Notes under the pieces: generated by a model | What the model saw: only the letters and a program-made list of their open reading frames with translations | Told to the model about the DNA's origin: nothing | Database searches by the model: none | NCBI RefSeq assembly: GCF_003363715.1 | Contig: NZ_QREV01000017.1 | Coordinates: 1 to 64,000 of the forward strand | Origin: Parabacteroides acidifaciens | Lineage (GTDB): Bacteria > Bacteroidota > Bacteroidia > Bacteroidales > Tannerellaceae | Length of the DNA: 64,000 bases | Direction of reading: 5' to 3' | Program-made: the position numbers and the translations under genes | Shown here: positions 90-40,021 of the stretch, in pieces | How positions within the stretch are numbered: the first letter of the stretch is position 1 | Layout: every line of letters starts with the position of its first letter

Positions 90-241
90 GTAATTTGTCA
101 GGTTTGCAGAAGATTCAAAACTTGACAAATATAAGCTATAAATAATAATTTATCATTGGCATATCGCCCCACTATTTCCTTTATGACACTCTTTCATCTA
201 TTTTTAACTACCGGGTGAAAGATGGAATAAAGATTTGCTTG

Positions 242-249
242 TATCTTTG
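242..249 (+). promoter_or_regulatory. Bacteroides-type -7 box (TATCTTTG) for glnN
   Basis: TATCTTTG matches the TAnnTTTG -7 consensus of Bacteroidetes and ends 28 bases before the ATG at 278. I see no clear -33 TTTG at the right spacing. The box lies inside the longer GTG-initiated frame that begins at 215, which argues for the ATG at 278. Confidence 0.6.
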
Positions 250-277
250 CAGGCGGTATAACATAAAAACAAACTGT

Positions 278-2467
278 ATGTCAATCTCACGCTTCAATGC
301 AGTGGAGAAAGCATCCAACCGAAAGGCTGTGGAAGCCATCACTCCCAATCAGAAAGTATCCGAATATTATGGTGAAAATGTCTTCAACCGGAAGGCAATG
401 CAAAAGTACCTCTCCAAGGAAACCTACAAGGCACTTACTCATGCAATCGACAATGGTACGCCCATCGACAGGGAAATAGCCAACCATGTGGCTGCCGGTA
501 TGCGCATGTGGGCACTGGAAAAAGGAGTCACGCACTACACCCACTGGTTCCAACCTCTTACCGACGGCACAGCCGAGAAACACGACGCGTTCGTGGAACA
601 TGACGGCAACGGCGGCATGATCGAAGAATTTAGCGGCAAGCTGCTCGCCCAGCAGGAACCGGATGCGTCCAGCTTCCCGAACGGCGGATTGCGCAATACG
701 TTCGAAGCACGCGGCTACTCGGCCTGGGACCCTTCTTCACCTGCGTTTATCGTAGACGATACTTTATGTATCCCGACCGTATTCATCGCCTACACAGGTG
801 AGGCGCTGGACTATAAAACACCGCTGATCCGTTCGATCGAGGTGTTGAACGAAGCAGCCAAAGACGTTTGCAACTACTTCAACGAAGAGGTAAACAAAGT
901 CATCACATATTTAGGATGGGAACAAGAATATTTCCTGGTCGACGAAGACCTTTATTCCGCCCGTCCGGACCTGTCACTGACGGAACGCACCTTGCTGGGA
1001 CACGAAAGTGCCAAAAACCAGCAGTTGGACGATCACTATTTCGGAGCGATCCCTTCCCGGGTACAGGAGTTCATGAAGGATCTGGAAACGGAATGTTACA
1101 AATTAGGTATTCCGGTCAAGACCCGTCACAACGAGGTTGCCCCGAACCAGTTCGAGTTGGCGCCTATTTATGAAGAATGCAACTTGGCAAACGACCATAA
1201 CCAATTGCTGATGTCGGTCATGAAACGAGTTTCACGCCGCCACAATTTCCGTGTGCTGCTTCACGAAAAGCCTTTCATGGGTGTGAACGGCTCCGGTAAA
1301 CACTGCAACTGGTCGATGGGGACCGATACAGGCATCAACCTTTTCTCTCCGGGAAAAGACCGTGAAGACAATCTGAGGTTTATCACCTTCGTTGTCAACT
1401 CGCTGATGGCCGTATATAAATACAACGCCCTGCTGAAAGCCAGCATCGCATCGGCAACCAACGCACACCGTCTGGGAGCCAACGAAGCCCCGCCTGCAAT
1501 CATCTCATCCTTCTTGGGAACACAGATCACAGAGATACTCGACAAGTTTGAAAACTGCTCCATCGAAGATGCCATCGAAGTAGACGACAAGAAGCGCCTG
1601 CACTTAGGCTTCGGACAGATCCCCGAACTGTTGCTGGACAATACGGATCGTAACCGTACCTCTCCTTTCGCCTTTACCGGAAACCGCTTCGAGTTCCGTG
1701 CACTCGGTTCGTCGGCTAACTGCGGTTCGGCCATGCTGGCACTGAATTCGGCCGTTGCCTACCAGCTCCGCCAGTTCAAGGAAGATGTAGAGGCGCTGCG
1801 TGAAAAAGGCAAAAGCAAGGAAGCCGCCATTTTCGAAGTACTGAAAGCCTATATCAAGGAATCCAAACCCATCCGTTTCGACGGCAACGGCTATGGCGAT
1901 GAATGGAAAGAAGAAGCTGCCCGCCGCGGCCTGGACTGCGAGAACAGCGTCCCGCTGCAATACGACGCTTACCTGAAGCCTGAAGTCATCAAGATGTTCA
2001 AGGAAACGGGAGTATTGAGCCTGAAGGAACTGGAAGCCCGCAACGAGGTGAAATGGGAGATGTATATTAAAAAGGTACAGATCGAAGCCCGCGTCCTCGG
2101 CGACCTGTCGATGAACCATATCATCCCGGTCGTCCTCCACTATCAATCCTTGCTGCTGAGCAACATCACAAAGCTAAAGGAGACCTTCGACAAAGAAGAG
2201 TATGACGAACTGTCGACCGAACCGCGCCGTCTGGTACGTAATATATCAAAACACGTCAACGCCGTGACCCGGATGACAGACGAAATGGTGGAAGCCCGCA
2301 AGAAAGCAAATCGCATCACCGACTTACGCAGCAAGGCAATTGCTTACCACGACACGGTCGCTCCTTATCTGGATGAGATACGCAGCCATATAGACGACCT
2401 CGAGTTGATGGTTGATAATCAGATGTGGCCATTGCCAAAATACCGGGAATTGCTATTCATTCGTTAA
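278..2467 (+). CDS. glnN: Glutamine synthetase type III (GSIII)
   Basis: Makes glutamine from glutamate, ammonia and ATP in the cytoplasm, the entry point of ammonia assimilation. The 729-residue length is the usual size of the Bacteroides type III enzyme, much longer than GSI or GSII. Visible motifs include FMGVNGSGKHCNW near residue 333 (substrate-binding loop with NGSG) and NRTSPFAFTGNRFEFRALGS near residue 460, both characteristic of the glutamine synthetase catalytic barrel. The C-terminal helical region (LSTEPRRLVRNISKHVNAV) is GSIII-specific. I chose the ATG at 278 rather than the in-frame GTG at 215 because the TATCTTTG promoter box lies between them. The gene stands alone, with a terminator just after its stop. 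Confidence 0.95.
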   Translation: MSISRFNAVEKASNRKAVEAITPNQKVSEYYGENVFNRKAMQKYLSKETYKALTHAIDNGTPIDREIANHVAAGMRMWALEKGVTHYTHWFQPLTDGTAEKHDAFVEHDGNGGMIEEFSGKLLAQQEPDASSFPNGGLRNTFEARGYSAWDPSSPAFIVDDTLCIPTVFIAYTGEALDYKTPLIRSIEVLNEAAKDVCNYFNEEVNKVITYLGWEQEYFLVDEDLYSARPDLSLTERTLLGHESAKNQQLDDHYFGAIPSRVQEFMKDLETECYKLGIPVKTRHNEVAPNQFELAPIYEECNLANDHNQLLMSVMKRVSRRHNFRVLLHEKPFMGVNGSGKHCNWSMGTDTGINLFSPGKDREDNLRFITFVVNSLMAVYKYNALLKASIASATNAHRLGANEAPPAIISSFLGTQITEILDKFENCSIEDAIEVDDKKRLHLGFGQIPELLLDNTDRNRTSPFAFTGNRFEFRALGSSANCGSAMLALNSAVAYQLRQFKEDVEALREKGKSKEAAIFEVLKAYIKESKPIRFDGNGYGDEWKEEAARRGLDCENSVPLQYDAYLKPEVIKMFKETGVLSLKELEARNEVKWEMYIKKVQIEARVLGDLSMNHIIPVVLHYQSLLLSNITKLKETFDKEEYDELSTEPRRLVRNISKHVNAVTRMTDEMVEARKKANRITDLRSKAIAYHDTVAPYLDEIRSHIDDLELMVDNQMWPLPKYRELLFIR

Positions 2468-2492
2468 TATTAACCTTACCCTATTCATATCA

Positions 2493-2528
2493 AAGACTGG
2501 CTTTATACAAATAAGTCAGTCTTTTTTA
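2493..2528 (+). terminator. Rho-independent terminator of glnN
   Basis: An 11-bp stem (AAGACTGGCTT paired with AAGTCAGTCTT, one G-T pair) with a 9-base loop is followed by a run of T. It lies 26 bases after the glnN stop and insulates the downstream susC region. Confidence 0.8.
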
Positions 2529-2543
2529 TTACTCATAAACATA

Positions 2544-2955
2544 AGTCTTTGTAGAACTTAGTTAAAATACAATCAAACTAAGTAAATGGGCCCGTAATAA
2601 TCATCAAACTGCTTCTCATAAACACATTTTTATATAGTTGAACACTCTTTTGTGGGCAAAAATATGTAAAAAGATTGTAACTACAATTTATTTGGACAAA
2701 AAAAGTAAGACAAGAATAAAAAAAATTAGCACTTCGTACATTGGCATTTATTAAACATTTACAATAGAACCATTGATTAGAGATTGTTTTTCATGATTTA
2801 AAGAACCTGACAGCCCCATATACGTATTATTACGTATCAGATCATACACTTAATCAACAACTTAGACAACAAGCACAGGGTTAACATTATAATTACCACA
2901 TAAGAGTAAATTTTTATCAATAACATTAAAATACAAACATAGTTCTACAAAGACT
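2544..2955. promoter_or_regulatory. Putative invertible promoter segment (inverton) upstream of susC
   Basis: A 15-bp perfect inverted repeat, AGTCTTTGTAGAACT at 2544-2558 and its reverse complement at 2941-2955, bounds 382 bases of AT-rich non-coding DNA between glnN and susC. Inside, the best promoter match reads on the minus strand, away from susC: TATTTTTG (2657-2664) with ATTG (2684-2687) at 19-base spacing. I find no TAnnTTTG box on the plus strand of the segment, so the captured orientation should be OFF for susC. A palindrome, ATACGTA-N4-TACGTAT, lies at 2820-2837. Promoter inversion by tyrosine recombinases is known for Bacteroides SusC/SusD genes; no recombinase is encoded in this window. 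This accounts for most of the 544-base gene-free stretch 2468-3011. Confidence 0.7.
2657..2687 (-). promoter_or_regulatory. Candidate promoter inside the inverton, pointing away from susC
   Basis: On the minus strand, ATTG (near-consensus -33 TTTG) is followed after 19 bases by TATTTTTG (perfect TAnnTTTG -7). Inversion about the 15-bp repeats would move it to about 2812-2842 on the plus strand, roughly 160-170 bases before the susC start. Confidence 0.5.
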
Positions 2956-3011: not shown

Positions 3012-6000
3012 ATGATGAAAAAATTAATTATTATTTTTCAATTCCTTTTGATAGGAATCAGTATGATTGTTGCCCAGAATACGCAAGTAAAGGGAACAGT
3101 TACATCAGGCGATGACGGCTTACCTATTCCAGGAGCCTCCGTCGCAGTAAAAGGTACCACGCTCGGTACGATAACAGACGTTGACGGGAATTTCTCCCTG
3201 TCGGTTCCAGCAAATGCTAAAATCCTCCAGATATCCTTCGTCGGGATGAAAACACAAGAGGTAGCAGTGAAACCGGTTATCGCGGTCGTACTGCAATCGG
3301 ATGTCGCTTTCCTGGACGAAGTAGTAGTCACTGCACAAGGATTGACGCGTAAAGAGAAATCCTTAGGATACGCGACCCAACAGGTAAAAGCAGAAGACCT
3401 GCAGGCTGTCCGCCAAACGGATTTGAACAACGCCTTGGTTGGTAAAGTAGCCGGTGTCCGCTTTTTAGGTGGTTCGGGAGCCAAGTTCGACGCTGGTAAG
3501 ATCGTCTTGCGCGGTACCAGTTCGTTGACTGATGCAGGCGGTAGCGAACCGTTATATGTTGTGGACGGTATCATTACCAATGCAAACTCGATTAATATGG
3601 ACGACGTGGAAGCTGTCAACGTATTGAAAGGGCCGGCAGCCACAGCTCTTTACGGTTCACGCGGTGGAAACGGAGCCATTATCATTACGACAAAAGGGCT
3701 TACCGGTGAAAAATCGGAATTCAACGTAAGCCACACGCTTTCTTTTGAAAAAGTGTACCTGCACAATGATATCCAGAAAGAATACGGAGGCGGTTATTAC
3801 GGAGCAGACGCAGAAATGGACGTCTTCCACTATGATCCAGCCAGACATCCTTCCTACTTGCAAGCATTGGATGGCGTTCAATATTACGACTATGCCGACG
3901 ATGCCAGCTGGGGACCGAAACTGGACGGACGTGAATACGCTCCCTGGTATGCTTGGGATCCGACAAGCCCGCTGTTCGGAAAGACGGATAAATGGACTTC
4001 CAAGATGAACCTGAACGATTTGTTCGACACAGGAGTCACCAACACGACAAACCTTTCGTTTGCCCGTTCCGGTAAAGACTACATGACACGCGTCTCATTC
4101 ACCAATTCGGCACGCGACGGTGTAGCCCCCAACAGTAACGCTGTCCGCCGCTTCCTTTCGGCCAAGACACAATTCAAGCCGATGGACAGATTGACAATCT
4201 CTTTGGATTACAAGTACACCTACCGGAAAAACCACAACGCAGCAGTTGAAGGTTATTCAGGCGCTGGTAACGTGCTTTACTCATACCAGCAATGGGGACA
4301 TACGAATGTCGACCTCAGCCAGTTACGCGACTACAAACGCCCGGACGGTACTTTCCGCTCCTGGAACATTACGAGCCCGACAAACCTGACGCCTCAGTTC
4401 CATGACAACCCGTTTGCCCTGTATAATGAAATCAACAACACGGATATCTACCAGTGGAATGTATTCAGCGCAGACGCACAATTGGAATTACCCTGGAACA
4501 TCAAGGCCGGTGTCAAGATGAACGGTAATATCCGCAACCAGCGTACCGAAGGCAAGATGCCGATGAATGTCTTAGACGAAGTATCCACCTACAATGAGGG
4601 ACAAAACTCGCTGATCGACATGCAGGTACAGGGACGTCTGACATGGGGAGGCCGTTTCGTCGATGACCGCTTGTCGATAGACGCAGCTTTATTCCTTGAA
4701 AACAGAAATTATACCTATAACGAAGTAAGCGCCTTTACACGCGACGGGCTTTTCCTCGATAAGTTCTTCAGTACGGCTGCTTCCGTTGGTCTGGCCGGTG
4801 GTAGCAACTCCAAAACGGACATGAAGGAACAAAGTATCTACGGAACCGGTACTTTCGGATGGGACGATACTTATTATCTGGACTTCTCACTGCGTAACGA
4901 CTGGACTTCCACACTGCATCCGGATAGAAACAGCTACCTGTACGGAGGCCTTTCGGCTGCTGTAATGGTGAACAACTGGATGAAAGATGTTGAATGGCTG
5001 GACTACTGGAAAGTGAGAGGCTCCATGGCACAGGTAGGTTCTACGATGAGTGCATACAATGTATATCCGACCTATAAACTGAAAGACGCTGACGGCAACG
5101 TCATCAAATACGGCTCGCTTTCCAACCTGTGGAACGACACGAACCTGAAAGATCCTTATATCAAACCGACAATCTCAACTTCTTTCGAAGTCGGTACGGA
5201 ATTCAAGATGTTCGGAAACCGTTTCTGGGGAGACTTCAACTTCTACAACCGTGACTCCAAGGACCAGATCATCAACGTGAACACGACTCCCGCAAGCGGA
5301 TACAGAAGCCGTAAGATGAACGCCGGTCTGATCCGTAACAGAGGTATCGAACTTTCATTAGGCGGCACGCCGGTCAGCACAAGAGACTGGACGTGGGATA
5401 TCAACGCCAATGTTGCCCGAAACAGAAATACACTGGAAGAGCTGGTTGAAGGACAAGACACATATCAGATCTACTGGATGAGCTGGAGCACACGCGTCTA
5501 CTCGTATGCCGAAGTCGGCAAACCGATCGGTGTGATCCGTGGTTCCACATGGGCAAAAGACCCGGAAGGACGTATTATCCTTTCAGAACGTGCCGATCCT
5601 AACCATGTTTACGGCCCTTACGCCCCGCTGCTCGATGCAAGCGCACAGGAAGAATTAGGTAATATCCAGCCGGATCTGACCGGAGGTTTCTCTACTTCTC
5701 TCCGTTATAAGAACTTCAGGTTAAGTGCTTCTTTCGACTTCCAGATCGGCGGTGAAATAGCATCTGCAACCAATATGTTCGGTGAAGGTTCCGGATTGCT
5801 GACCTCTACAGTCGGACTGAACGATAAAGGAAATCCGATCCGTAACAGTGTTGCCGACGGCGGTGGTGTCCGTATGGATGGCGTTGTCGATAATGGCGAC
5901 GGGACATACAGACCTGTAACGGCTTATGTCGATGCTAACTATTATTACCAGTCACGCAAAAGTCTGATCTGGGAAGATTATGTTTATGATGCAAGTTACC

Positions 6001-6236
6001 TGAAAATGCGCGAACTGTCCGTAACCTACGACGTTCCCACAGCTTTCCTTGACAAAACAAAGTCTGGTATAAAGAAAGCCAGTTTATCGTTTGTTGCACA
6101 GAATCCTTGGTTGATCTATTCCGGCGTGCCCAACATCGACCCGTCTGAATCAGGTGGCGCAACCTATAATTATATAGAAGGAGGACAGGCAGCTTCTACC
6201 CGTTCTTTCGGTCTTACAGTAAATCTTACATTCTAA
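3012..6236 (+). CDS. SusC/RagA-family TonB-dependent outer-membrane transporter
   Basis: Outer-membrane importer that works with the SusD-like lipoprotein encoded next to it to take up an oligomeric nutrient with TonB energy. After a signal peptide ending near residue 22 (IVAQ) come a carboxypeptidase-regulatory-like domain (about 24-100), a DEVVVTAQG segment near 102-110 typical of the start of the plug, and the plug domain to about residue 231 (ALYGSRGGNGAIIITTKG). A long beta-barrel ends in the aromatic LTVNLTF. There is no STN domain, so it is not the type that signals directly to a FecR anti-sigma factor. I prefer the ATG at 3012 (MMKKLII); an in-frame ATG at 3003 exists. It is followed after 20 bases by the susD-like gene. 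Expression is probably set by the inversion-type segment upstream. No glycosidase is linked, so the substrate could be a glycan, a peptide or other. Confidence 0.93.
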   Translation: MMKKLIIIFQFLLIGISMIVAQNTQVKGTVTSGDDGLPIPGASVAVKGTTLGTITDVDGNFSLSVPANAKILQISFVGMKTQEVAVKPVIAVVLQSDVAFLDEVVVTAQGLTRKEKSLGYATQQVKAEDLQAVRQTDLNNALVGKVAGVRFLGGSGAKFDAGKIVLRGTSSLTDAGGSEPLYVVDGIITNANSINMDDVEAVNVLKGPAATALYGSRGGNGAIIITTKGLTGEKSEFNVSHTLSFEKVYLHNDIQKEYGGGYYGADAEMDVFHYDPARHPSYLQALDGVQYYDYADDASWGPKLDGREYAPWYAWDPTSPLFGKTDKWTSKMNLNDLFDTGVTNTTNLSFARSGKDYMTRVSFTNSARDGVAPNSNAVRRFLSAKTQFKPMDRLTISLDYKYTYRKNHNAAVEGYSGAGNVLYSYQQWGHTNVDLSQLRDYKRPDGTFRSWNITSPTNLTPQFHDNPFALYNEINNTDIYQWNVFSADAQLELPWNIKAGVKMNGNIRNQRTEGKMPMNVLDEVSTYNEGQNSLIDMQVQGRLTWGGRFVDDRLSIDAALFLENRNYTYNEVSAFTRDGLFLDKFFSTAASVGLAGGSNSKTDMKEQSIYGTGTFGWDDTYYLDFSLRNDWTSTLHPDRNSYLYGGLSAAVMVNNWMKDVEWLDYWKVRGSMAQVGSTMSAYNVYPTYKLKDADGNVIKYGSLSNLWNDTNLKDPYIKPTISTSFEVGTEFKMFGNRFWGDFNFYNRDSKDQIINVNTTPASGYRSRKMNAGLIRNRGIELSLGGTPVSTRDWTWDINANVARNRNTLEELVEGQDTYQIYWMSWSTRVYSYAEVGKPIGVIRGSTWAKDPEGRIILSERADPNHVYGPYAPLLDASAQEELGNIQPDLTGGFSTSLRYKNFRLSASFDFQIGGEIASATNMFGEGSGLLTSTVGLNDKGNPIRNSVADGGGVRMDGVVDNGDGTYRPVTAYVDANYYYQSRKSLIWEDYVYDASYLKMRELSVTYDVPTAFLDKTKSGIKKASLSFVAQNPWLIYSGVPNIDPSESGGATYNYIEGGQAASTRSFGLTVNLTF

Positions 6237-6256: not shown

Positions 6257-7717
6257 ATGAAATATATAAAATTTATAGCAATAGCATTAACCGGCTTAAT
6301 GACATTTAGCAGTTGCGGGGATTTCGGCGACACAAACGTTGACCCGAACAACCCGTCAATGCCGGAGACACGTTTCTTGTTTACATACGCCTGCCGGGTA
6401 GTCCCGCAGTTCACCATGACCGGAACGTATGATCCCTGGAACCAGTTATACCCGCAATATTTCACAGAAAGACAAAATGTCCAATATAGCGGATATGCCA
6501 TGACCGACTTCAACCTGGGTCCCTTCTACTACGAACGTCTCCGTAACCTGAATACAATCATCTCACTGAACACAGATGAGGAAACGGCAAACGAGTCGTA
6601 TGTGGTTCAATTGGGAGATAGAAACAACCAGATTGCCGCCTGCCGTACGCTGCGTGCATTCATTTATATGCACATGACCGACGTCGTAGGAATGCTTCCT
6701 TACACAGAAGCATTGAAAGGCGACGATGGTCTCTTTACTCCCAAATATGATACGCAACAATTTATCTACGAGGATCTGGACCGTGATTTATCCGAAGCAT
6801 ACAGCCAGTTCGACGAATCCGGCTCATTGGATAATACTTTCGACATCCTGTATGCCGGCAATATCGCCCGCTGGAAAAAGCTCAATGCATCTACGCGTAT
6901 GATGCTGGCGATCAAACTGTCAGACGTAGATCCGGCAGCCGGAAAAGCTCGTTTTGCAAAGGCTTATGCAGACGGAGGCATGGTTAGTAACGATGACCGC
7001 TTGGAATATAAATACTTGCCAGAAACAGCGAATGAGAATCCATTATATAACAATATCATTGTTTCCGGTCGTAAAGACTTTGCCCCGTCCAAAACGATTT
7101 TGGACCAGCTGATCGCCTATAACGATCCGCGTTTGGAAGTTTATGCAGACCCGAACAGTGAAGGTAAATATGAAGGTGTTCCGTACGGTATTGCACAGGC
7201 GGAAATTGTAAACTACCCGGATTGTGCGACTTTCGACCCTCGTTATTACCAGCAAAATTCACCGATGGTGGTCATTTCGCCCTCACATATCTTACTGATT
7301 CAGGCAGAAGCAGCCGTCCGCGGATGGATAAATGCCGATGCAGAAGCATTATATAAAGCAGGTATCGCCGCTTCCTTCGGCCAATACGGATTGGACAGCC
7401 AGGTCGATGCTTACTGTGCTCAACCCGAGATCGCATTCACGGGGTCAGATCAGCAAAAGATAGAAAAAATAGCGATGCAACGCTGGTTAGGCAACTTTAT
7501 GCAGGATGGCATCGAGGCTTGGTCCGACTGGCGCCGGTTGAACGTGCCGAAGTTGAAACCGGGTAGCGCAGCAACAGTAACCCATGTTCCGTACCGCCGT
7601 CATTATTATCCGGATGATTACAACACGAATGTACCCAACTACGAAGCTGCAATAGCTGCACAGGGACCGGACAATTTCGACACTCGCGTATGGTGGGATG
7701 TTGCACCGAACGAATGA
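6257..7717 (+). CDS. SusD/RagB-like nutrient-binding outer-membrane lipoprotein (SusD-like_2 type)
   Basis: Surface lipoprotein lid that binds the nutrient for the SusC partner immediately upstream. The 486-residue protein has a lipoprotein signal with Cys20 in FSSC, followed by the GDFGDTNVDPNNP start that is common in the SusD-like_2 subgroup. Helical TPR-like regions with typical phrases (CRTLRAFIYMHMTDVVG, MQRWLGNFMQDGIEAWSDWRR) fit the fold. It is the second gene of a two-gene unit with susC and ends before a hairpin at 7781-7816. The substrate is unknown. Confidence 0.9.
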   Translation: MKYIKFIAIALTGLMTFSSCGDFGDTNVDPNNPSMPETRFLFTYACRVVPQFTMTGTYDPWNQLYPQYFTERQNVQYSGYAMTDFNLGPFYYERLRNLNTIISLNTDEETANESYVVQLGDRNNQIAACRTLRAFIYMHMTDVVGMLPYTEALKGDDGLFTPKYDTQQFIYEDLDRDLSEAYSQFDESGSLDNTFDILYAGNIARWKKLNASTRMMLAIKLSDVDPAAGKARFAKAYADGGMVSNDDRLEYKYLPETANENPLYNNIIVSGRKDFAPSKTILDQLIAYNDPRLEVYADPNSEGKYEGVPYGIAQAEIVNYPDCATFDPRYYQQNSPMVVISPSHILLIQAEAAVRGWINADAEALYKAGIAASFGQYGLDSQVDAYCAQPEIAFTGSDQQKIEKIAMQRWLGNFMQDGIEAWSDWRRLNVPKLKPGSAATVTHVPYRRHYYPDDYNTNVPNYEAAIAAQGPDNFDTRVWWDVAPNE

Positions 7718-7859: not shown

Positions 7860-8378
7860 ATGAAAAACATCCTACTAATAATCAGTTTCGTTTTATGCAA
7901 CACGTTTGCGGTTGCACAAACATCGCGTTATTTTGATGTCAAAGTCACTCCGACTAAAATATCCAAACATATAGAATTGACACCTAAAAATATCTCAGAC
8001 GTTAGACCAAAAAATTCCGGACATTGTAATAACTCTTGTATCTGTAAAAACGAGGATACATTTAATAAACTTGTCACCTCCATCGTTAAAAGTGCTTTCA
8101 AAGGCATAGACCAGGAGGATATAAGCCTTCTAAAACAATTTAAATTCAGTTTCACTTTTGATTCCTCCATGAAAATTGTGTATTTCAGATTTACATTCTA
8201 TGAGAAATACGCCGACAGAATCATGAAATTAGAGAAAAACATGTATGACTTGTCACAAAAGTTCTTATACATGGATATAAGTCCTTATTTCGAAGTGGAA
8301 GATTCGAGTTTATTTCAATATGCACAATGGACCATTCCATTGTACAACCTATTCACCTCGGAACCGTCGAAGCAATAA
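7860..8378 (+). CDS. Small secreted hypothetical protein
   Basis: A 172-residue protein with a clear signal peptide (cleavage near AVAQ, residue 20) and no other membrane segment, so it is likely periplasmic or cell-surface. A CNNSCICK stretch near residues 57-64 carries three cysteines. The rest is mixed alpha/beta, with KIVYFRFTFYEKY suggesting beta strands. I do not recognise a function; it resembles small secreted DUF proteins of Bacteroides (possibly the DUF5043 group), which is a weak recollection. It sits 142 bases after the SusD-like gene and before a lipoprotein gene, and could belong to the same nutrient-uptake neighbourhood. Confidence 0.65.
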   Translation: MKNILLIISFVLCNTFAVAQTSRYFDVKVTPTKISKHIELTPKNISDVRPKNSGHCNNSCICKNEDTFNKLVTSIVKSAFKGIDQEDISLLKQFKFSFTFDSSMKIVYFRFTFYEKYADRIMKLEKNMYDLSQKFLYMDISPYFEVEDSSLFQYAQWTIPLYNLFTSEPSKQ

Positions 8379-8511: not shown

Positions 8512-9672
8512 ATGAAAGTAAAAGCACTTCTTCCATTCGCAACTATCCTGCTAACAAGCCTTGCCGGTTGCGGTTCCCCCACTCAAAAATCGATGCAGGC
8601 AAACGACGGTAGCGTCCGAATAGTCGAAAACCCGGACGGCCCGCTATATATCTGCGACCTGAAAACGGTTAAGGACACAATTGACGTACCTCTTAGCGAA
8701 TTGGTGGAAGACTGCCGGATCGTACGTTTTGAAACGTCTGACGAAGCAATGTTCAAGGCTTGGTGGATACAGGTAAGCGACAACTATATCTGCATCCGGC
8801 AGGAATCCGACGTGGTTAAACTATACGACAAAGACGGGAAATTCCTTTGCAACGTGGGTGCAATGGGGCACGGTCCGGGCGAATATGCGCTGACAACCTA
8901 CGATGAGGTCATCGACGAACAACGCGGCCATATATTCCTTACCCCATTCTATGGGAAGAAAATCATGATGTACGGACTCGACGGAAAATGGATAAAAGAC
9001 ATCAACCTGCCCGGCCAGATAAATAAGGCGAAGATCGAGATAAATGCGGACGGTACGCTTTCCGTTATCCATATGCCGTTCCAAGAGGGTGCGCCTTTTG
9101 CTTTCCGGGTAGATACGGATGGAAATATTCTGGACAAGGTACCGGCAAGCCCATATATGCTGGCTTCGAATTTTGACGGCGAAATATTCTCTTACCGCAA
9201 CACGGGAACATTTGACTTCTTCTATACAGGTGTCGACACGACCTATACCTACGACACAAAAGCAAACCGGCTGATACCGCGCTTCACCATGAATTTCCCA
9301 GGCCTTGGCGAAAAGCCTTACCATATTTACACGGAACTTCCGAACCACGTCATAACCAACTATTATACCTGGGTCGACGGACAGTTTATACCAGGAGGGA
9401 CCGTGCTTGTGGATAAACAAAAAATGTCGTCCACGCAATTCCGTCTGGTCAACGACTTCTATGGCAACCTGCCCGTTTCAAACCCCAACATCCACTTCAA
9501 CAAAGGCTGGTTCATGTTTAATATAGAACCGGGCGCCCTGTCAGAAATGATCGAAACCCATCTCACCTCCGGAAAATGCCCGGATAAGGACAAAGCGAAG
9601 CTGAAAGAGCTGGCTGGCTCGTTACACGAAAATGACAATAATCTGATGTTTGTAGGGAAGCTGAAAAGATAA
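8512..9672 (+). CDS. 6-bladed beta-propeller lipoprotein
   Basis: A 386-residue lipoprotein (Cys20 in LAGC). After the signal comes a strand-rich region with the family's hallmark phrasing: an early VPLSELVEDCRIVRFET segment, YDKDGKFL, and GAMGHGPGEY near residues 115-124, found in Bacteroidetes 6-bladed propeller proteins of the BF2992/DUF4934 group. These proteins are often encoded near SusC/SusD genes, but their biochemical role is not settled; a surface binding or scaffolding role is inference. It has its own promoter box under a long palindrome and ends before a strong bidirectional terminator. Confidence 0.8.
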   Translation: MKVKALLPFATILLTSLAGCGSPTQKSMQANDGSVRIVENPDGPLYICDLKTVKDTIDVPLSELVEDCRIVRFETSDEAMFKAWWIQVSDNYICIRQESDVVKLYDKDGKFLCNVGAMGHGPGEYALTTYDEVIDEQRGHIFLTPFYGKKIMMYGLDGKWIKDINLPGQINKAKIEINADGTLSVIHMPFQEGAPFAFRVDTDGNILDKVPASPYMLASNFDGEIFSYRNTGTFDFFYTGVDTTYTYDTKANRLIPRFTMNFPGLGEKPYHIYTELPNHVITNYYTWVDGQFIPGGTVLVDKQKMSSTQFRLVNDFYGNLPVSNPNIHFNKGWFMFNIEPGALSEMIETHLTSGKCPDKDKAKLKELAGSLHENDNNLMFVGKLKR

Positions 9673-39903: not shown

Positions 39904-40021
39904 CCTCCCATCCAATTCTTGTCCGACCCGGGTCGAACGGCTGTTTGACGGAGGTCGGACAGCTGTCTGACGAGTGTCGAACAACTGTTTGACCCGGGTC
40001 GGACAAGGATTAAGTGGGAGG
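39904..40021. repeat. GC-rich palindromic repeat island
   Basis: Inverted arms of 29 bases with four differences (39904-39932 and 39993-40021) share CCTCCCA and CTTGTCCGACCCGGG. Between them lie three 22-base units starting at 39932, 39954 and 39976, with a partial fourth at 39998, each of the form GTCGRACRRCTGTYTGAC plus four bases. Each unit is itself nearly palindromic. The block is much richer in G+C than the flanking intergenic DNA. A reading frame across it has no recognisable protein. It fills the gene-free stretch 39643-40088; the rest (39790-39900) is also GC-rich and unexplained. Confidence 0.7.

Follow-up and report, generated by a model that had tools for sequence, protein, structure and literature searches.

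Our results suggest that positions 2544-2955 of the window (the whole stretch of Parabacteroides acidifaciens DNA analysed here, 64,000 nucleotides) very probably form a site-specifically invertible promoter, assembled in its OFF orientation. Note that this degree of confidence applies to the switch and excludes the enzyme that flips it. The putative segment, which measures 412 bp including its arms and has 28% GC, lies directly 5' of a susC-susD pair and 3' of glnN. An invertible promoter captured in the OFF orientation had been proposed in an earlier note on this DNA, and the proposal is supported by an inversion between relatives, by a family of sites found at contig ends and by a recombinase linked to a susC shufflon. 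Looking beyond the window, we give slightly better than even chances to a wider reading, in which this switch would be just one of the outputs of a regulon spanning the genus Parabacteroides. There, a single shufflon-linked tyrosine recombinase would act in trans on a susC shufflon whose sites are internal to susC, on several stand-alone susC promoters and on divergent susC pairs, each pair sharing an invertible segment and thereby toggling between two transporters.

The upstream neighbour of the segment, glnN (215-2467, plus strand), encodes a type III glutamine synthetase. Downstream, on the same strand, susC (3012-6236) encodes a SusC/RagA family TonB-linked outer membrane protein of 1074 aa, and susD (6257-7717) encodes a SusD-like outer membrane lipoprotein of 486 aa (PF12771). 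Two further plus-strand genes possibly belong to the same operon, one for a 172-aa protein with no family match (7860-8378) and one for a 6-bladed beta-propeller protein of 386 aa (8512-9672, PF17170). The two closest named relatives of the window SusC come from Parabacteroides (83% and 71%), and among proteins of solved structure, the SusC protein BT_2264 matches it best in sequence. As previously noted, this SusC is without an STN domain (no PF07660 match at E 0.001). Beyond the beta-propeller gene, GH43 and GH2 genes are found on the opposite strand; in the part of the frames that was scanned, the minus strand of 9860-33694 presents a polysaccharide-utilisation-like cluster with GH43, GH2, GH97, SusD and an STN-bearing SusC.

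The segment is bounded by a perfect inverted repeat of 15 bp, AGTCTTTGTAGAACT, each copy of which is a putative recombinase site. The left arm (2544-2558, plus strand) and the right arm (2941-2955, minus strand) are identical and flank 382 bp directly 5' of susC, with 56 bases between the right arm and the susC start at 3012, so the arms and their spacing are those originally described. Genome-wide, the two arms are the only exact copies of this sequence, and three more sites carry it with one mismatch. In B. fragilis YCH46, the Tsr0667 (BF0667) recombinase is said to act on invertible regions and on susC/susD shufflons, and its site consensus is reportedly AGTYYYN4GDACT (Nakayama-Imaohji et al. 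2009). The inverted 15-bp arm pair of the window fits this consensus. Inverted 15-bp pairs separated by 50-1000 bp never appeared when the 64-kb window was simulated 40 times with a first-order Markov model, and such a pair was obtained in 4 of 3000 simulations of the 544-bp intergenic region (27% GC). Note that three more perfect inverted-repeat loci of at least 15 bp exist in the window, at about 39918, 61223 and 63251. Since the length of the repeat is not unique within the window, it is the fit of the arms to the consensus and their position that carry the weight. The first of these other loci (39918-40007) is intergenic; its inverted repeat has arms of the GTCCGACCCGGGTC type, which enclose several short words related to one another.

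Inversion was observed at the orthologous locus of relatives. With orthologues defined at E <= 1e-200 and at most 20 candidates scored per genome, susC orthologues were present in 10 of 38 genomes of the genus, the window genome included. Seven of these ten, again including the window's own, carry a consensus pair within 1500 bp upstream, and no such pair was found in the 1500 bp 5' of the orthologue in G010, G011 and G025. In the arm-bearing loci the pair starts 456-688 bp and ends 52-81 bp before the aligned gene start, enclosing segments of 402-618 bp. Six different arm sequences are represented among the seven genomes, while within a genome the two arms agree at 15/15 positions (five genomes) or 14/15 (two genomes). 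This is as expected if strand exchange keeps the arms identical, in which case they would drift between species yet match within each.

In two closely related species (genomes G022 and G024), the orthologous susC is preceded by a natural inversion bounded by the arms. Flipping one segment aligned it with the other from arm to arm (551/607 aligned positions, 90.8%), whereas in the same direction the alignment was no better than with shuffles. In support of this, the flanks are collinear: the left flank is identical at 569/600 positions (94.8%), the stretch to the gene at 77/80 and the gene start at 582/600 (97%). The opposite orientation that the earlier note suggested looking for in relatives therefore exists at the orthologous locus. 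Both orientations are those of G022 and G024, and the window strain is known in one orientation only. Moreover, since the window segment did not align with the G022/G024 segment better than shuffles in either direction, the orientation call in the window does not rest on these two genomes. In a DNA search of 58 relatives, the interior of the window segment was not found beyond short matches.

Two of the orthologous loci have features of their own. In G025 (L103), a different 17-bp inverted repeat, TCTCTTCGTAAGAGATG, lies at -224 to -46 of the susC orthologue and encloses a TAnnTTTG box directed toward susC, perhaps representing another kind of invertible promoter. In G002 (L102), nested GC-rich inverted repeats, which resemble an inserted small repeat element, are located inside the putative segment at -299 to -85 of the gene start.

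The OFF assignment derives from the contents of the segment and from what lies upstream of it. A promoter-like element (2657-2687, minus strand), composed of ATTG and TATTTTTG with 19 nt between them, faces away from susC as assembled. It had been presented as a full -33/-7 promoter. Its -7 box, TATTTTTG, was confirmed at 2657-2664 of the minus strand, but the term full was overstated, as the -33 element, ATTG, agrees at 3/4 positions. The absence of TAnnTTTG from the plus strand of the segment was also verified. With a combined consensus score of 12.0, the window element ranked level with the top-scoring one of 100 shuffles. In each of the seven segments, at least one of 100 shuffles scored as high as the best consensus promoter. 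The consensus promoter scan did not separate real from shuffled segments and was rejected as a discriminator. A sigma-70 scan, which is ill-suited to Bacteroidota promoters, gave nothing beyond chance.

In addition to this element, whose consensus score is no higher than that of the best shuffle, the segment contains a recurring block. This TTTTACATAnnTTGC-like block, situated around the element, was matched by an explicit pattern in five of the seven segments. It points away from susC in the window (L094) and in L095, L098 and L102, and toward susC in G024 only. The pattern had no match in L096 and L097; by alignment, L097 has block-like sequence, with a less clear case in L096. Since the block points away from susC in four of the five segments, the ON state, or movement of the switch itself, may be rare.

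Upstream, an intrinsic-terminator-like hairpin with a 12-bp stem, a 9-nt loop and a T run follows glnN (2492-2527, plus strand). Its predicted stability is -15 kcal/mol (z-score -6.8), and none of 200 shuffles was equally stable. A terminator pattern scan missed this hairpin, the loop limit of the scan being 8 against a loop of 9 nt, and in the window no Rfam family was matched at its cut-off. The hairpin should stop glnN transcription and so insulate the segment from transcription arriving from upstream. Because the segment has no rightward consensus promoter and is preceded by the glnN terminator, susC is most likely off as assembled.

The genome of the window strain contains 19 PF00589 and 5 PF00239 matches, and one of the former is found beside a susC shufflon. 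This candidate tyrosine recombinase, of 400 aa, is encoded on contig C35 (G000:C35:98124-99323). At a distance of 4.6 kb the contig ends within a susC, at the site AGTCTTTGCAGAACT, which differs from the window arm by one base. A tyrosine recombinase is thus present in this genome, along with a susC shufflon whose site is of the same type as the window arms. Matches to this recombinase were obtained in 26 of 38 genomes of the genus (its own included), and the surrounding regions were read in four relatives among them, which have long contigs (G013, G014, G021 and G022). In all four, the recombinase is 0.3-5.1 kb from susC copies carrying AGTCTTTGCAGAACT, which lies inside susC, near the position of residue 67 of the window SusC. 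The site occurs in both orientations in three of these relatives and in one only in G022. We read the susC copies with the internal site beside the recombinase as a susC shufflon. The layout of recombinase and shufflon (G000:C35:98124-103896; L140, L141, L142, L143 and L146) recurs in the four relatives whose regions were read.

The distribution of this recombinase follows that of the arms. It is present near full length, with 70-100% identity, in all seven arm-bearing genomes; the frame in G032, a metagenome-assembled genome, holds one stop. Among the armless genomes, G010 had no match at E <= 1e-50, G011 has a 180-aa frame and G025 a partial match of 52%. Homologues of a control recombinase (C67, the one control tried) were found in 10/10 of the orthologue genomes. 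Since these ten genomes share ancestry, the co-occurrence of arms and recombinase is weaker as a test. When 149 genomes of the order were searched for the C35 recombinase, one further relative was added at E <= 1e-90 (L147). NCBIfam was tried as a means of telling invertases apart among the tyrosine recombinases and was rejected, as none of the seven tested matches reached the cut-off. From its location and distribution, we consider the C35 recombinase to be probably the enzyme responsible, and the most likely one for the switch.

The site family also marks contig ends in the window's genome. Genome-wide, AGTYYYN4GDACT gave 36 and 40 matches versus 44 and 57 for the reversed control pattern, so that the consensus is not enriched over its control. 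The 76 rows correspond to 57 distinct sites, 19 rows being the second strand of the same site. As many as 16 of the 57 distinct sites are at most 6 bp from a contig end, when 0.035 would be expected within 10 bp (288 ends). Within 20 bp of a contig start there are 10 distinct sites for the real pattern and none for the reversed control among 100 of its 101 matches. At those far contig ends that could be checked, the nearest control match is 28 bp away, in a run of four repeated copies on C124. A SusC-coding stretch starts at or near the site at 12 of the 16 ends (C4, C35, C66, C79, C98, C100, C104, C120, C125, C127, C142 and C143), and no SusC match was found within the stretch read at C76, C77, C124 and C128. 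We infer that breaks of the assembly at consensus sites are the expected result of mixed orientations or of shufflons. This coincidence with contig ends provides independent support for the consensus AGTYYYN4GDACT.

Some of these ends point to a divergent arrangement. The susC genes at the C66 end and at the C98 start carry the same arm, and in G021, G013 and G014 a divergent susC pair has three consensus arms in the approximately 970-1040 bp between the genes. C66 is clearly closer to one side of the pair in all three genomes; C98 clearly matches the other side in G021, and both sides nearly equally in G013 and G014. In such pairs, one invertible segment may choose between two transporters. 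No inversion of a segment was found among the divergent pairs of G021, G013 and G014: an apparent flip between G013 and G014 was rejected because the flanks were swapped too, the whole locus being reversed in G013. Divergent pairs were seen at L162, L163 and L164, and the C104/C143 and C100/C125 contig ends look alike.

What follows for the window strain is inferred from these data: that the segment inverts, that its promoter is active, which orientation is ON and which OFF, and which enzyme acts. A tyrosine recombinase acting in trans would exchange strands at the two 15-bp arms and flip the 412-bp segment. As assembled, the promoter would fire leftward, to the 3' end of glnN, and the glnN terminator would block transcription arriving from the left, leaving susC-susD silent (OFF). 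Inversion would move the -7 box to 2835-2842, so that 169 bases would separate its end from the ATG at 3012, in good agreement with the distance of about 165 bases estimated earlier. From there susC-susD would be transcribed, with a leader of about 160 nt (ON). The candidate enzyme is the C35 recombinase, which adjoins the susC shufflon that uses AGTCTTTGCAGAACT.

Other readings of the locus have to be weighed against this one. The switch could be of the same kind but be served by another recombinase than the C35 enzyme, which we regard as unlikely; this reading being a variant of the best explanation, the odds of the two overlap. The genome offers many other recombinase genes, and the co-occurrence comes from ten genomes of shared ancestry with one control recombinase. 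Against this, the shufflon next to the C35 enzyme uses a site that is the window arm but for one base, and the enzyme is near full length exactly where arms occur, which is not true of the control homologues. Another possibility could be a locked or decaying former switch, in which the arms have been kept and inversion has ceased in the window lineage. The contig is unbroken at the window locus, unlike at the 16 consensus sites elsewhere, so most of the sequenced cells may have shared one orientation. However, the window arms are still identical at 15/15 positions despite the drift between species, and the genome holds an open recombinase frame, making this reading improbable.

Finally, the repeats may have nothing to do with recombination: a regulator could bind to the pair, or the repeat could have arisen by chance, in front of an ordinarily regulated susC. 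The AT-rich intergenic simulations do yield such a repeat at times and the promoter match is weak, both of which would suit this explanation. At the orthologous locus, however, it is contradicted by the arm-to-arm inversion of G022 and G024, and the matched arms at 7/10 orthologues and the contig ends at the same site family also stand against it. We give it very little credence.

By analogy, the window locus would work like a Tsr0667 simple inversion, a kind of locus already known from B. fragilis. The likeness to B. fragilis SusC/SusD promoters, drawn previously, holds in the arms, in the susC/susD target, in the tyrosine recombinase and in the presence of a shufflon. As in the Tsr0667 system, 15-bp arms fitting AGTYYYN4GDACT precede susC/susD targets, and putative simple inversions exist together with a susC shufflon. 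Unlike in it, the host is Parabacteroides and the arms vary between species. The Mpi arms, we assume, differ from those of the window. According to PMC4747536, the three master invertases described for B. fragilis are Mpi, Tsr0667 and Tsr19, and Tsr0667 governs three susC/susD shufflons and nine other regions (for its role, see also PMC11852207). The same paper presents the Mpi capsule promoters, which resemble the window switch in that inversion takes place 5' of genes for surface structures and one invertase serves many loci. Mpi differs from it in being a serine recombinase with mostly capsule targets. The capsule-locus promoter of P. distasonis APCS2/PD (PMC12118408) has 20-bp arms, GTTACTTCTTAGGTAACGGA, and an invertible region of about 290 bp. 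It shares with the window switch the genus and the position before the first gene of an operon, but the window arms are unrelated to GTTACTTCTTAGGTAACGGA and the downstream genes are not capsule genes. Inversions near susC/susD in gut Bacteroidales have also been found in metagenomes, according to PMC10939037. In the literature covered, which included few subscription papers, we found no account of this type of locus in Parabacteroides.

With the present locus, the type of SusC/SusD phase variation known from B. fragilis would reach into Parabacteroides, where related species show a natural inversion and a candidate invertase can be named. As suggested in PMC4747536 and PMC10939037, SusC switching may alter nutrient uptake and the way in which the host and phages view the cell. 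With the C35 candidate, the whole proposed regulon becomes testable by the deletion of a single gene.

The cassette of switch, susC and susD occupies different gene neighbourhoods across species (L067, L120-L123), as if it moved as a unit; within the stretches read, glnN is close to the cassette in just two cases, the window and L067, in the latter inverted. At the start of C128 (L091), a consensus arm stands beside a small lipoprotein gene that is fimbrillin-like by eye only, and the arm at the start of C76 (L085) is almost the same as this one.
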